Assembly: GCF_026013905.1 (NCBI RefSeq)
Contig: NZ_CP110257.1
Coordinates: 1,612,001 to 1,676,000 of the forward strand
DNA: 64,000 nt
From: Schlegelella aquatica
GTDB taxonomy: Bacteria > Pseudomonadota > Gammaproteobacteria > Burkholderiales > Burkholderiaceae_C
Direction: 5' to 3'
In this document: piece by piece, positions 34,241 to 39,087 of the stretch
How positions within the stretch are numbered: the first letter of the stretch is position 1
Layout: the number at the start of each line of letters is the position of its first letter
The notes under the pieces: model-generated
Database searches by the model: none
Told to the model about the DNA's origin: nothing
The model's input: only the letters and a program-made list of their open reading frames with translations
Made by a program: the position numbers and the translations under genes

Positions 34241-34693
34241 TCAGTGCTTGCGCTCGGAGAGGATTCGAATGACCAACCGGCACAGGCTCGCGCTGTCGAC
34301 CGGCTTGGCCAGGTGGTGTTCGAAGCCGGCTTCGCGGGCGGCCCGGCGGTCTTCCTCGCTGCTCAAGGCGGTGAGCGCGACCAGCACGGGGGTCTCGCCC
34401 TCCAGCTCGTCACGCAGCTTGCGCGCGAGCTCGTAGCCGCTCATGCGCGGCATCGAGATGTCGAGGATGGCGATGTCGGGCTTGAACGACGCAGCCACTT
34501 CCATCCCGCTCTGACCGTCGTAGGCCACACGCGGCTCGTACGACAGCAGACCCAGCAGCATCGCGAGGCTGTCGGCAGCGTCTCGGTTGTCGTCGACGAT
34601 CAGCACGCGCGGGCGGCGGGGCTCGCCGGCGATCCACGGTTCGGCGCCGGTGGGGGCACGGGGCGAGAGGGGGGCTTGCCGGCGAGGGTTCAT
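34241..34693 (-). CDS. Single-domain response regulator
   Basis: This 150-residue protein is one receiver domain: acidic pair in VLIVDDNRDAADSL, phospho-Asp in IAILDISMPRMSGYELA, and Lys in HHLAKPVD. There is no output domain, so it would act in a phosphorelay or by protein contact. It follows the hybrid kinase on the same strand after about 57 bases, so it is probably its partner. About 28 residues precede the receiver fold. Confidence 0.9.
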   Translation of the reverse strand: MNPRRQAPLSPRAPTGAEPWIAGEPRRPRVLIVDDNRDAADSLAMLLGLLSYEPRVAYDGQSGMEVAASFKPDIAILDISMPRMSGYELARKLRDELEGETPVLVALTALSSEEDRRAAREAGFEHHLAKPVDSASLCRLVIRILSERKH

Positions 34694-34750
34694 GCCCTCG
34701 AAAAAGCAAGCCCGATGCCTGTTCCTGCACCGGCCCCTCAGCTGAGTGAC

Positions 34751-36988
34751 TCAGGCGCGGGAGGCGGCCACGCGAGGGGGGGAGTCCTCGCGTGGGCTGG
34801 CAGCCGCCAAGGGGCTCAGCACGGCGGCCAGACGTTCGAGTCTGACGGGCTTTTCGAGCACGATGAGCCCTGTGCGCCGCGCCTGGGACACACGCGGATC
34901 GCCGGGGTCGCCCGTGAGCAGCGCGAGCAGGGCGCCTGGGTGCTGCTGTTGGACGTCGAGCAGGACGTCCAGCCCGGGGCGTCCGGGAAGGCGATGATCG
35001 GCGAGCACGGCGTCCCACACCCAAGACGAGCTGGCGAAGAGCTGGGACGCGTCCTCGGCGGTGTGGACCACATCCACCGTGAGTCCCCAGGTGCGCAGCA
35101 CGTCGGCCGTGCTTTGGGCCACCACCTCGTCGTCCTCGACGAGCAGGGCGCGTCCTGCGAGGAGTGGGGCCCGGCCCTCGGTGGCGTGCGAGGCCGCCGC
35201 CAAGGCCAAGGGCACGCTCACGGTGACCGTCGTGCCCTGACCCGGGATGGAGTGCAGCCGCACCGGGTGGTCGAGCAGGGTGCTCATGCGTTTGACGATG
35301 GACAGGCCCAGCCCCAGCCCGAGCGCAGGGTTGCGCTGCGGATTGCCCAGTTGACGGAACTCCTCGAACACCTCCTGCTGGCGCTCGGGCGGGATGCCTT
35401 CGCCCGTGTCGCGCACGATGATCTCCACACGGCCGCCCGTGCGCGCGAAGCTCAGGCGGACCTCGCCCGAGGAGGGCGTGTACTTGATCGCATTGCTCAC
35501 GAGGTTGCGCAACATCCGGCCGAGGAGCACCGGGTCGGTGTGGACGGTCGCGTCGGTCTTGTCGGCCTCGAGCTTCACGCCTTTTTGCGCCGCCGTGGCC
35601 GAGAACTCCTCCACCACCGTGCGCACCAGCCCGTCGAGCTCCACGGCCGCCAGGTGCGGCCGGATCAGCCCGGCGTCGAGTTGGGAGACGTCGAGCAGGG
35701 CATTGAGCAGCTCGCCGAGATTGGCCACCGAGCGTTTGAGCCGCTCGACCAGGGCGACCTCCGGGCTGTCGCCCAGACGCGAGGACAGCAGGGCGATGTT
35801 GAGGTTCATCGCGTGCAGGGGCTGCCGCAGGTCGTGGCTGGCGGCGGCGAGGAACTGCGTCTTGGAGTGGTTGGCGCGGATGGCCTCGTCGCGGGAGCGG
35901 CGCATCTCCTCGTGGGCGGCGGCCAGTTCCTCCTGCCGCCGTGCCAGATGCTCGGCCATGCCGTCGAGGGCCTTGCCGAGTTCGCGCAGCTCGTTGTCGG
36001 CGTCGGTCTCCAGGCCGGTGCGCGCCGCGAGGTCGCCCTTGCGCCAGCGGGCTGCGGTCTCGTTCAGACGGGCGAGCGGGTGGTACACCTTGCGACGCGC
36101 GACCGCGAAGGCGAGCACCAGGCCGATGCCGACGGCCGCGATCGCGAATGCCGCCTCCCAGGCCAGTCGACGCCACACCGGAGTCAGCACGGCCTCGCGC
36201 GGCCGGGTGAGCACCACCGCGAAGCCCCGCGGCTCGCTCGCTTCGGGCACGTACCCGGCGATGAGGGTGTTGCCGTCGGCGATCTTGACGGAGGCGTTGC
36301 CCGGTTGCGTCGCGTAGACGAGCCGCCGCAACTCCTTGGGCAATGCGCGTCCGATGCTGCCCTCGTCGGGCAGTTCGACGAGCAAGGAGCCCCGGCGGTC
36401 GGTCACGTAGAGACGCGCGTCCTCGGGCAAGGGCCTGTCCACCAGCTGGCGGGCCAGCCAAGGCAGATTGATGGACGCGAAGACGACGCCCAGGGCCTTG
36501 CCGTCGGCGTCCAGAATCGGGTAGCCGAAATGCAGCACCGCGGTGCCGGGCACCTTGGCGTAGGCGAGCTCGCCGACCACGAAGTCGCGCGTGCGCAAAG
36601 CCTCGCGGAAGTAGGGTCGGTCGGCGTTGTTGATGGGGCTGTTCTGCCCGAAGGGCAGGCCCATGCAGTACACGTTGCCGTCCAGGTCGGAAGCGCCGAT
36701 CGTGAAGCCGTCCCGGAACTGTTTCTGGAGGGATGCGAGATAGGCGGCGCAGGCCGGCGCGTTGCGCGAGCGCACGATGGGCGTCGTCGCCACGCTGAGC
36801 AGGAGGTCGCGGTAGCGCGCGCTGACCTGCTCCAGTTGGCCGGCCACCAGCTGCGCCTGCCGCTGCACGTCGAGGAGGGCCTGCGCCTCCCGTTCGCGGG
36901 CGGTCTCCACGTGCTCGACGGCTTGCAGAGCGATCATCGGAATGAGGCCGGCGATCACGACGAGCGCCAGGCGGGCGTGCAGCTTCAT
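34751..36988 (-). CDS. Cache-type hybrid sensor histidine kinase with C-terminal receiver
   Basis: This 745-residue membrane kinase has TM1 at about residues 5-25, then a periplasmic Cache-type sensor (about 30-275; GNVYCMGLPFGQNSPINNADRPYF is typical of a dCache ligand domain). TM2 in FAIAAVGIGLVLAFAVA and a HAMP region follow. HisKA has its His near residue 385 in ASHDLRQPLHAM. The HATPase carries NLVSNAIKYTP and GLGLGLSIV, and a receiver (ALLVEDDEVVAQ, VLADHRLPGRPG) ends the protein. The SHDLRQPL form is common among kinases paired with single-domain or LuxR regulators. The signal is unknown; the neighbouring GRDP-like gene upstream may be co-transcribed. Confidence 0.93.
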   Translation of the reverse strand: MKLHARLALVVIAGLIPMIALQAVEHVETAREREAQALLDVQRQAQLVAGQLEQVSARYRDLLLSVATTPIVRSRNAPACAAYLASLQKQFRDGFTIGASDLDGNVYCMGLPFGQNSPINNADRPYFREALRTRDFVVGELAYAKVPGTAVLHFGYPILDADGKALGVVFASINLPWLARQLVDRPLPEDARLYVTDRRGSLLVELPDEGSIGRALPKELRRLVYATQPGNASVKIADGNTLIAGYVPEASEPRGFAVVLTRPREAVLTPVWRRLAWEAAFAIAAVGIGLVLAFAVARRKVYHPLARLNETAARWRKGDLAARTGLETDADNELRELGKALDGMAEHLARRQEELAAAHEEMRRSRDEAIRANHSKTQFLAAASHDLRQPLHAMNLNIALLSSRLGDSPEVALVERLKRSVANLGELLNALLDVSQLDAGLIRPHLAAVELDGLVRTVVEEFSATAAQKGVKLEADKTDATVHTDPVLLGRMLRNLVSNAIKYTPSSGEVRLSFARTGGRVEIIVRDTGEGIPPERQQEVFEEFRQLGNPQRNPALGLGLGLSIVKRMSTLLDHPVRLHSIPGQGTTVTVSVPLALAAASHATEGRAPLLAGRALLVEDDEVVAQSTADVLRTWGLTVDVVHTAEDASQLFASSSWVWDAVLADHRLPGRPGLDVLLDVQQQHPGALLALLTGDPGDPRVSQARRTGLIVLEKPVRLERLAAVLSPLAAASPREDSPPRVAASRA

Positions 36989-37072
36989 GAACTCCTCTTT
37001 GCTCTAGGCATGAGGATAAGGCACGCCGGCCGCGGCGCTCTGGGGAGTCTTCCCGGGGAAGCGCCGGGGGCC

Positions 37073-37786
37073 TCAAGAGGCGCGGGGTGCCACCGGGTGG
37101 CCCGTCGCCCCAGCGCCGTCACCCGGGAGGGCGGTCTCGGCGGCGGGCTGGCGGGCGCAGAAGACCGCCTCGTCCTGGGCGCTGCGGGCGCAGAAGGATG
37201 CGTCCACCCGCGGGCGGCGCGCGCAGAAGGCGGCTTCGTCTTGCGGCTGGCGGGCGCAGAAGGCCGCCGTCGGCTCCGGACGCCGGGCGCAGAACGCGTG
37301 CTGCGGCGCGGCTTGCCTGGCGCAGAAGGCATCTTCCGGTGTGCGGGCGCAGAACGCGGGCTGCGAGCGGGCGCAGAAGGAGCTTTCGGTCGCGGCGCGG
37401 ACCGGTTCGCCGAACTCCCGCTCGTAAAGGGCGTGCAAGGCGTCGGCTGCCTGCTGCTGAGCCGCACGGTCGGTTTCGTCTCCCAGCCCCAGGTAGGGAT
37501 AGTGATGGATGAACTCCCCGAAGGCCTGCGCGCAGTCGGCCGCGTACTTGCGCGTGTCGAGGATGTGCGTGTGCCAGAACTCGTCGATGTCCGGGGTGGG
37601 CGCGAGGGTCTCGTCGGGGTACTTGGCCAGAAGCTTGAGGTAGCGGCGGTAGTCGCGCTCGGCGGCGACTGCCCGGGCTTCGGACCATCCCTTGCCGGCG
37701 TGCTCGTGCGTGAGCCGGCGGCGGATCGGCTCGAGGTCGAGGCGGTCGATGGCCGCCAGCACGTCTTCAATCGGTTTGCAGGTCAT
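37073..37786 (-). CDS. GRDP-like domain protein with eight FCAR repeats
   Basis: This 237-residue protein has two parts. Residues 1-130 resemble the GRDP-like (PF07173-type) domain, with DEFWHTHILDTRKYAADC at 68-85 and IHHYPYLGL after it. Residues 137-212 contain the tetrapeptide Phe-Cys-Ala-Arg eight times, at 137, 145, 154, 165, 176, 187, 198 and 209. The last five intervals are exactly 11 residues and are mostly Pro/Gln/Asp/Glu-rich linkers. The only cysteines in the repeat region are those in FCAR. The start at 37786 has an AAGGAG site. The next gene on the strand is the Cache kinase, 84 bases away. The function is unknown; a metal-binding, disulfide or peptide-precursor role is possible. 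Confidence 0.85.
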   Translation of the reverse strand: MTCKPIEDVLAAIDRLDLEPIRRRLTHEHAGKGWSEARAVAAERDYRRYLKLLAKYPDETLAPTPDIDEFWHTHILDTRKYAADCAQAFGEFIHHYPYLGLGDETDRAAQQQAADALHALYEREFGEPVRAATESSFCARSQPAFCARTPEDAFCARQAAPQHAFCARRPEPTAAFCARQPQDEAAFCARRPRVDASFCARSAQDEAVFCARQPAAETALPGDGAGATGHPVAPRAS

Positions 37787-37807
37787 GACGTTGAGCTCCT
37801 TGGTGGA

Positions 37808-37833
37808 GGAGCCGCCCACCGTCGGGCGGCTCC
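37808..37833 (-). promoter_or_regulatory. Strong hairpin just upstream of the FCAR gene's ribosome binding site
   Basis: GGAGCCGCCC and GGGCGGCTCC form a perfect 10-bp stem with a 6-base loop. It lies about six bases before the AAGGAG site of the FCAR-repeat gene. It may act as a translational control structure, or as a terminator remnant; no T-tract follows. Confidence 0.45.
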
Positions 37834-37935
37834 GCCTGGCACTCTCGGCGATGGGGCCGCACGTACCGGTAACAACCGGTGTCCGCTGGGCTCACTCGGC
37901 ACTGGGCTTGCTCATACTGGCGATCGAGCCCTGTC

Positions 37936-39087
37936 ATGAAGATCGCGCAGGTCGCCCCGCTGTACGAGAGGGTACCGCCCCAGGCCTATGGAGGCACCGA
38001 GCGGGTCGTTTCCTATCTCACCGAGGCACTCGTCGACCTGGGCCACGACGTCACGCTGTATGCGAGTGCGGACTCGGTCACGAGCGCCGATCTCGTCGGG
38101 GTGGTGGAGCAGGGACTGCGGCTCGACCCGCGCCGGCCCGACCCGTTGGTCTGGCACACGCTGTTGCTCGAGCGGGTGATGCAGGACGCGCACGAGTTCG
38201 ACGTCATCCACTTCCATACCGAGGTGCTTCAGTACCCGTTCGCGGTGCGCTGCCCCACGCCCTCCCTGACGACCTTGCATGGCCGCCTGGACCGGCCCGG
38301 GCTGGCGGAGTTGCACGAGCGTTTTCGCCGGCACCCGCTCGTGGCGATCTCGGAGCATCAGCGCGGCTGCATGCCGGGCGCCCGATGGATCGGCACGGTG
38401 CCGCACGGCATCCCGCAAGGCTTGTACGACTTTCACGCGGGGCCGGGCGACTACTTCGCGTTCCTCGGCCGGCTGTCGCCGGAGAAGCGCCCGGACCGCG
38501 CCATCGAGATCGCCCGCGCGTGCGGCGTGCCGCTCAAGATCGCGGCGAAGGTGGACGACGCCGATCGCGCGTACGTCACGCATCACCTGCGCCCCCACCT
38601 GGAAGACCCGGTGGTGGAGTTCGTCGGCGAGATCGGCGAGGATCGAAAGAGCGACTTTCTCGGGCGGGCGCGGGCCTTGCTGTTTCCGATCGACTGGCCG
38701 GAGCCTTTCGGGCTGGTGATGATCGAGTCGCTGGCCTGCGGCACACCGGTCGTCGCGTACCGGTGCGGCTCCGTGCCGGAGGTGATCGAGGACGGCGTCA
38801 CGGGGTATGTGGTGGAGGACCAGGTGGCCGCGATCGAAGCGGCAGCCCGCGTGCACCGGCTGGATCGCCGGGCGTGCCGCGCGGCCTTCGAGCGACGCTT
38901 CGGGGCCGACCGCATGGCCATGGACTACGTACGGATCTACGAGGCGTTGCAGGCCGCCCGCAGCGGTGCAAGGGGTTCCTCGGCGCAAGAGCTCGCGGGC
39001 GGGACGGCAGCGGCAGGCGAGGTGCGCGAAGACCCGGGCTCGGCGCGTGCGGGGGCCTTGCCCGCCGATGCAGGCCCGATGACCTGA
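37936..39087 (+). CDS. Glycosyltransferase family 4 protein
   Basis: This 383-residue GT-B glycosyltransferase has the N-terminal glycine-rich motif in PPQAYGGTERVVSYLTEAL. Its C-terminal nucleotide-sugar site is LLFPIDWPEPFGLVMIESLACGTPVVA, with the E-x7-E motif. It has no membrane helix. About 45 residues after the fold are Ala/Gly-rich. It is followed 54 bases later by an amylo-alpha-1,6-glucosidase, a pairing seen in many proteobacteria. The two may work in one glucan pathway, but donor and acceptor are unknown. Confidence 0.9.
   Translation: MKIAQVAPLYERVPPQAYGGTERVVSYLTEALVDLGHDVTLYASADSVTSADLVGVVEQGLRLDPRRPDPLVWHTLLLERVMQDAHEFDVIHFHTEVLQYPFAVRCPTPSLTTLHGRLDRPGLAELHERFRRHPLVAISEHQRGCMPGARWIGTVPHGIPQGLYDFHAGPGDYFAFLGRLSPEKRPDRAIEIARACGVPLKIAAKVDDADRAYVTHHLRPHLEDPVVEFVGEIGEDRKSDFLGRARALLFPIDWPEPFGLVMIESLACGTPVVAYRCGSVPEVIEDGVTGYVVEDQVAAIEAAARVHRLDRRACRAAFERRFGADRMAMDYVRIYEALQAARSGARGSSAQELAGGTAAAGEVREDPGSARAGALPADAGPMT

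Follow-up and report, generated by a model that had tools for sequence, protein, structure and literature searches.

The window, that is the whole stretch of 64,000 nucleotides of Schlegelella aquatica DNA analysed here, contains a gene coding for a GRDP-like domain followed by tandem short repeats, and the genes of a hybrid sensor kinase and a response regulator lie behind it (Table 1). At E ≤ 0.001, this GRDP-repeat gene was the sole match in its 3.35-Mb genome. Within the 237-residue protein, FCAR begins at residues 137, 145, 154, 165, 176, 187, 198 and 209 (spacings of 8, 9, 11, 11, 11, 11 and 11), which recovers exactly the eight copies and the last five spacings of 11 given in the original prediction. 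The residue preceding F is A, S or V, and the codons for F and C are invariant across the repeats. Ala (29), Arg (12) and Pro (11) abound in the 107-residue tail, which also carries eight Cys. When the tail was shuffled 100,000 times, FCAR appeared at most twice, and twice in 10 shuffles.

Table 1 Features of the repeat gene and its neighbours in the window
Feature	Position	Strand	Basis
GRDP-repeat gene, 237 aa	37073..37786	minus	open reading frame translation
GRDP-like N-terminal domain, residues 1-130	37397..37786	minus	PF07173, alignment, AlphaFold2 model
Eight tandem FCAR core units, residues 137-212	37151..37378	minus	positions, spacings, codons
AAGGAG, Shine-Dalgarno-like site of the GRDP-repeat gene, before ATG	37796..37801	minus	sequence
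Hybrid sensor kinase (dCache_1, HAMP, HisKA, HATPase_c, REC)	34751..36988	minus	Pfam
GAGGAG, Shine-Dalgarno-like site of the hybrid kinase, within the 84-bp gap	36992..36997	minus	sequence
REC-only single-domain response regulator, downstream of the kinase	34241..34693	minus	Pfam

The hybrid kinase starts 84 bp past the stop codon of the repeat gene on the same strand, and from this gap the two genes are probably co-transcribed. By its position, the response regulator is a possible partner of the kinase. Pfam domains agree with the Cache hybrid kinase and response regulator named in the original prediction, where the kinase was taken as background; here it is the main clue. A perfect short inverted repeat without a T run (GCCGCCC-gacggt-GGGCGGC, window 37811-37830) closely precedes the ribosome-binding site of the repeat gene. 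An open frame of 1,231 residues on the plus strand (34244-37939), antisense to both kinase and repeat gene, is probably a by-product of high G+C.

The homologue search gave 323 proteins at E ≤ 0.001, of which 120 listed ones were used, and with 98 proteins from 77 GTDB loci the family set consisted of 219 sequences (216 unique). The 77 distinct loci derive from the best 80 of 454 confirmed stretches, a sample that leans to close relatives. The motif was tallied in 215 tails of at least 15 residues (L036 proteins were left out except one). At least three [FYW][CS] pairs were found in 197 of these tails, with 3-19 copies of A-[F/Y/W]-[C/S]-x per tail. The commonest pair per protein was WC (83), FC (44), YC (34), YS (21), FS (11) or WS (4), and typical units elsewhere in the family are AWCGAE, AFCTRPPQ, AYCMLRPG, AWCAVEPT and AYSGRAVQ. 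An aromatic residue precedes 1,224 tail Cys of at least 1,270 counted. Ser mainly takes the place of Cys in the repeats of 36 of 198 proteins, mainly of Janthinobacterium and Pseudoduganella. Among the 18 tails with fewer than three pairs are short ones, a copy that seems to be frame-shifted (P0051) and tails with ARC-type units (P0063, P0093 and P0106).

Copies inside one protein are near-identical (identity at the aromatic, C/S and +1 positions 0.96, 0.99 and 0.96, respectively), whereas mainly Ala-aromatic-Cys/Ser is common between proteins (0.35, 0.69 and 0.29). Among 95 family genes with at least four repeats, pN/pS was 0.050 in the core and 0.507 in the linkers at similar pS (0.54 and 0.57), which points to selection on the protein and not to recent DNA copying; the repeats are, on these ratios, kept by selection on the peptide. 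The statement in the original prediction that F-C-A-R was kept while linkers drift therefore holds for selection on the repeats (0.05 vs 0.51) but not for FCAR itself. The tetrapeptide had also been proposed as the functional unit, which did not stand: homologues conserve A-[F/Y/W]-[C/S] plus lineage-specific residues. Judged from these tails, FCAR is only the version of A-[F/Y/W]-[C/S]-x used by the window lineage. Homologues without the repeats or with random substitution of Phe, Cys and Arg had been named as counter-evidence. The 18 tails above do lack the repeats and the three residues do vary, but not randomly (Phe to Trp or Tyr, Cys to Ser). The conserved core units under selection in a ribosomal precursor are what is asked of a RiPP precursor, and a multi-core peptide precursor, one of the options originally offered, is supported. 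This bacterial family is large and apparently undescribed.

The N-terminal domain had been described as GRDP-like, and residues 41-84 indeed match Pfam PF07173 (31.9 bits against a curated cut-off of 22.7; profile positions 96-143 of 143). In a 75-row alignment, W34, D68, H72, T78, K80, Y81, D84, C85, H94, H95, P97 and G100 are invariant, and the His, Asp and Cys among them could form a metal site. The AlphaFold2 model of the domain is all-helical (pLDDT 86-98 in the first nine 10-residue blocks), the repeat tail was modelled with low confidence, and comparison of the domain model with solved folds gave no clear match. This N-terminal domain is the one known from plant AtGRDP1/2 and bacterial relatives. 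Plant members of PF07173 carry a glycine-rich C-terminal region, unlike the window protein with its Ala/Arg/Pro-rich tail. Gly/Cys tails are present in several PF07173 members from phage contigs and other bacteria, and among GRDP proteins of viral contigs (L079-L085) several tails are rich in Gly, Cys, Ser and His. In the literature searched, mostly outside subscription journals, published GRDP work concerns plant development and stress, and no account of bacterial members and their function, of peptide repeats or of receptor linkage was found there.

When open frames of loci L001-L078 were compared all against all, the most widely common neighbour of the repeat gene occurred at 74 of 78 loci, at a median of 230 bp and usually upstream on the same strand. 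Other widely common neighbour clusters (not all annotated) were, by position, mostly antisense frames or within-family synteny. Nine of the common neighbours were analyzed with Pfam and shared an extracytoplasmic CHASE domain with different outputs: HisKA_3/HATPase in Telluria, Janthinobacterium, Noviherbaspirillum and three others, and GGDEF-EAL in Caldimonas and a Cupriavidus plasmid. With a CHASE profile built in this analysis, CHASE was found within 3 kb of the GRDP-repeat gene at 74 of 77 loci, the exceptions being L034 (contig cut), L059 (TonB receptor instead) and L071. The orientation of the CHASE gene varies from upstream on the same strand to divergent (L008, L018, L021, L070 and L074) or downstream (L014 and L078). 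At some loci (e.g. L022, L032, L042 and L046), two GRDP genes with different motifs are served by one receptor. A Thiomargarita GRDP protein (L059:5071-7800) has ATCTDKIYVDT repeats without an aromatic-Cys pair and adjoins a TonB-dependent receptor plug-domain protein.

In a family-wide draw, 15 of 399 genomes matched, the window's own included. Among 13 further genomes fetched from it (at least four already among the 77), ten had A-aromatic-C repeats. CHASE was adjacent in six of these and absent in two of one genus (L143 and L147), and two short contigs were not judgeable; the three genomes without such repeats had no CHASE nearby. Eighteen genome entries that carry repeat genes yielded only 1-8 CHASE matches each (those of G003 and G792 are identical), so chance adjacency was estimated at below about 1 per cent. 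Some genomes were entered twice (L002/L112 in G003, L003/L088 in G002, L010/L144, L017/L140, L043/L141 and L076/L145). Repeat and receptor genes are genetically linked, as is the case for pheromone/receptor pairs.

The window genome has one CHASE gene, which lies elsewhere and not beside the repeat gene. In four other species of the genus, the repeat gene adjoins a CHASE receptor (L003 in G002, L002 in G003, L106 in G007 and L107 in G004). These species have a second GRDP gene with the motif once, at the extreme C-terminus (AAWCG, AAFCG, AYCM and TGYCY), and it is this single-motif gene that adjoins the orthologue of the window kinase, co-directional at L108 as in the window and convergent at L109, L110 and L111. 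An orthologue of the kinase sensor (E < 1e-60) was found in exactly five of nine genus genomes, those with the GRDP-motif gene; the remaining four had no GRDP match and weak sensor matches (E 2.4e-7 or worse) or none. This agreement in nine of nine genomes has a chance of 1 in 126 (hand calculation). Identity among the five sets was 0.40-0.55 for the sensor, 0.58-0.71 for the kinase core and 0.45-0.57 for the GRDP domain, and as the GRDP domains differ too, the set says little on co-variation. In the tree, the FCAR proteins form their own clade, nearer to the CHASE-linked repeat group than to the single-motif group (93/90, moderate support). At least three CHASE matches are clustered near the repeat gene in genus mates (G003:C3 40090-47663, G004:C2 4625437-4651790 and G002:C43 3346-34254). 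We propose the window hybrid kinase as the cognate receptor of the repeat peptide.

Several Massilia genomes contain two or three tandem receptor-GRDP cassettes with different motifs. In six paralogous cassette pairs (L006, L033, L036 and L038), the kinases share 0.92-0.96 and the GRDP domains 0.84-0.99 identity, the CHASE domains share 0.49-0.58, and the motifs differ. Where the kinases were less than 0.05 apart, pairs with the same motif (n=47) had a CHASE identity of 0.88, and pairs with different motifs (n=10) one of 0.57. Across genomes in the tandem-cassette set, at similar kinase identity, the median CHASE identity was 0.82 for the same motif (0.54-0.93, n=21) and 0.55 for different motifs (0.47-0.73, n=39). 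The low same-motif values stem from L055, where the YCAGPR motif groups with YCASPR and not with YCAGPW. By hand count, the nearest neighbour had the same five-letter motif in 8 of 12 rows for CHASE, 6 of 12 for GRDP and 3 of 12 for the kinase.

A partial Mantel correlation of 0.394 (p 0.001) was obtained between motif and CHASE distances given kinase and GRDP distances in 68 CHASE-kinase pairs (56 receptors), vs −0.153 between motif and kinase. The motif-CHASE value was 0.311 and 0.32 with 62 and 72 pairs, 0.362 with one row per receptor (n=60) and fell to 0.183 with Cys-type motifs only (n=39, p 0.002). The motif also correlated with GRDP-domain distance when CHASE and kinase were allowed for (0.237, p 0.001), which is expected as both are parts of one gene. 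The 68-pair set left out 31 GRDP rows with no receptor, too few repeats or an unmatched kinase pattern (this last cause removed the GGDEF-EAL receptors along with the second cassettes of L005, L012 and L055) and kept the kinase piece of L073 (0.58-0.64), which was probably cut wrongly.

The independent long receptors of GGDEF-EAL type gave a motif-CHASE value of 0.367 (p 0.0045) and −0.183 for the EAL end in 14 rows, and 0.341 in 15 rows with one genome doubled (L141, a duplicate of L043, was removed from the 14-row set, and the L003 and L146 rows found no receptor). These receptors were chosen by a length above 900 residues and the CHASE profile, L002 and L114 being the ones checked with Pfam. 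In two receptor sets, motif differences as measured by these distances follow the CHASE sensor rather than the output domain. A matched ligand and sensor that co-diversify beyond the output domain would give such a pattern; the Mantel approach does not remove shared descent, and motif and CHASE could simply be two fast-evolving parts of one co-inherited cassette.

The repeat gene is best read as coding for a multi-copy precursor of a peptide ligand for the adjoining receptor, a reading to which we give an even chance. The GRDP-like domain would be a peptide-handling or peptide-modifying partner fused to eight [A/S/V]-F-C-A-R cores (A-[aromatic]-[Cys/Ser]-x in the wider family), and the tail would be a store of near-identical peptide cores handled by it. 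The cores would be released, perhaps modified, and would act outside the inner membrane as ligand of the next-door receptor, which would be the dCache hybrid histidine kinase here and a CHASE receptor with kinase or GGDEF-EAL output in most relatives. Each lineage and each duplicated cassette would have its own core matched to its own sensor, like pheromone/receptor pairs. Cleavage, export and chemical modification of the cores, receptor binding and the role of GRDP are what we infer. Counted against the proposal are the window's dCache in place of CHASE, the single-motif state of the corresponding genes in the genus mates, the loci with no CHASE nearby (three of 77, and L143 and L147), the receptors that serve two GRDP genes with different motifs, and the limits of the correlations given above. 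The main gap is peptide delivery: CHASE and dCache sensors are extracytoplasmic, yet a signal peptide was not seen on visual inspection of the fused proteins, nor did a protease site or an exporter, dedicated or widely shared, come to notice.

Standalone GRDP genes were also analyzed. On a cyanobacterial plasmid, a tail-less GRDP gene precedes a distinct 43-residue gene that has two FCF units and a RPSIKLQLSDLTKSVRL end; both features are kept in three further database proteins. This Stanieria pair (L113:2491-15586) lies among CHAT, NB-ARC and dynamin genes, with a methyltransferase gene after the peptide. On Pseudomonas savastanoi and Halomonas plasmids, a small gene ending in GGGGHCQGGGGW or GGGHCQGGGSW is followed by GRDP and then by a transporter-like gene, which gave a MatE match below cut-off in Halomonas and none to Pfam in Pseudomonas; four database proteins resemble the GGGGHCQGGGGW-ending peptide. 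On the Halomonas plasmid (L117:6002-9721), an annotated LuxR regulator and acyl-homoserine-lactone synthase adjoin the GGGHCQGGGSW gene, GRDP and the MatE-like protein. No such small peptide gene was found near the plasmid GRDP genes of Maritalea and Azospirillum. GRDP proteins of L150, L151, L164, L167 and L168 end in a CPNCGRR segment and then an RPRL/RPSF-like tail.

Of 369 genomes in a class-wide draw, 18 matched the GRDP search (the window's own included). In nine of 15 fetched stretches (L182-L189 and L196), a small gene with leader and CxGxC-type core lies, by eye, directly upstream of GRDP or slightly overlaps it. Pfam confirmed a TonB-dependent receptor at L183, L186, L187, L189 and L196. 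It also showed a TonB protein at L186 and ABC-2 exporters at L183 and, directly upstream of GRDP, at L150; there was no CHASE match in L182-L196. Some distant bacteria thus pair a standalone GRDP protein with a small Cys peptide, and the repeat proteins have the appearance of a fused, amplified form of the two. The original prediction that no known RiPP maturase is adjacent stands so far as tested, but standalone GRDP adjoins small peptide genes in other bacteria. GRDP itself might be a RiPP maturation enzyme.

These clusters of a leader-plus-Cys-core gene, GRDP and TonB-dependent receptor in other gammaproteobacteria, with the ABC-2 exporter of L183, and the resemblance of their layout to methanobactin operons, as far as the available part of the sources describes them, would also suit cores that mature into a mainly non-signalling RiPP natural product (e.g. 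metal-binding or antimicrobial), whose product or cargo the receptor senses to control supply. However, the cores of those peptides are of CxGxC type and not A-aromatic-C, and neither TonB receptors nor exporters came to notice among the most widely common neighbours of the fused genes. The 36 of 198 proteins with Ser in place of Cys do not suit it either, and a common chemistry does not predict motif-sensor co-variation. We regard such a product as unlikely, but as a serious contender.

Short conserved repeated motifs with variable linkers, the low-confidence tail model and the lack of a noticed export signal would fit multivalent docking motifs of a cytoplasmic adaptor, acting downstream of the receptor or assembling other proteins. 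It is, however, the extracytoplasmic sensor that the linked receptors have in common, while their cytoplasmic outputs differ (HisKA_3, hybrid HisKA-REC and GGDEF-EAL), and the motif, too, goes with the sensor rather than with the kinase or EAL domain. We find an adaptor improbable.

A multivalent thiol, metal or structural scaffold under receptor control, of which the metal or thiol form was among the original options, would agree with the eight Cys of the window tail and the regular spacing of 11 in its last five repeats. The proteins with mainly Ser for Cys do not fit it, within-protein uniformity is almost as high for the aromatic residue as for Cys, and the spacing ranges from 6 to 25 across the family, with a single constant value in only 18 of 94 genes; such a scaffold is very unlikely. 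Slightly less probable still is a signal of kin lysis, in which a cytosolic protein freed by dying kin would be trimmed by ordinary peptidases and its lineage-specific fragments sensed by the survivors' receptor, a conjecture that would explain the lack of an evident export route and keep the motif-sensor matching. Overall, the original interpretation is partly supported.

Returning to the peptide ligand, every receptor has a genetic candidate ligand beside it, encoded many times over, and the paralogous cassettes are natural swap experiments, in which the kinases are near-identical and the sensors and motifs differ. If true, this would be a Gram-negative peptide-signalling system whose specificity code is easy to read, and bacterial GRDP-like proteins would have a testable role. 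To our knowledge, the ligands of bacterial CHASE domains are mostly unknown. For the Xanthomonas cytokinin sensor PcrK, a further periplasmic molecule, as yet unidentified, is thought to act, according to the part of the report available (PMC7072313). In a broader view, which we hold tentatively and at somewhat less than an even chance, GRDP-like proteins would be central partners of widespread, undescribed ribosomal peptides. The Burkholderiales peptide, fused in many copies behind GRDP, would have come to serve adjoining CHASE and dCache receptors as their cognate ligand; this would be polymorphic Gram-negative peptide signalling, and the peptides would be a first class of natural ligands of this kind for CHASE domains of bacteria. 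No account of such a bacterial GRDP/CHASE-peptide system was found in the literature searched, mostly outside subscription journals, and we regard the repeat-gene/receptor system as categorically new in kind, the ligand claim itself being evenly balanced.

Several known systems share parts of this arrangement. Methanobactin operons combine a precursor, an exporter and a TonB receptor, and on the part of the sources available they resemble the standalone GRDP genes, which have a small Cys peptide with a transporter or TonB receptor beside them; however, the peptides differ, and the fused GRDP form was not seen with transporter or TonB neighbours. Borosins are similar in that a possible maturation domain is fused to its own core peptides. 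Their fused domain is a SAM-dependent methyltransferase, whereas the cores here are A-aromatic-C/S and no methyltransferase match was obtained for the window protein with Pfam and NCBIfam. The agr and ComQXP systems share adjacent peptide and receptor genes, a variable sensor with a conserved kinase, and matched specificities. These are Gram-positive, in contrast to the Gram-negative system here, which has many copies per precursor and in which processing genes of agr or ComQXP type were not noticed. Yeast alpha-factor and other multi-copy pheromone precursors consist of tandem copies of one short peptide and are paired with a receptor, as proposed here. The yeast receptor is a GPCR, whereas the system described here is bacterial, with no secretion signal noticed, and combines a GRDP-fused precursor with a CHASE or dCache receptor.
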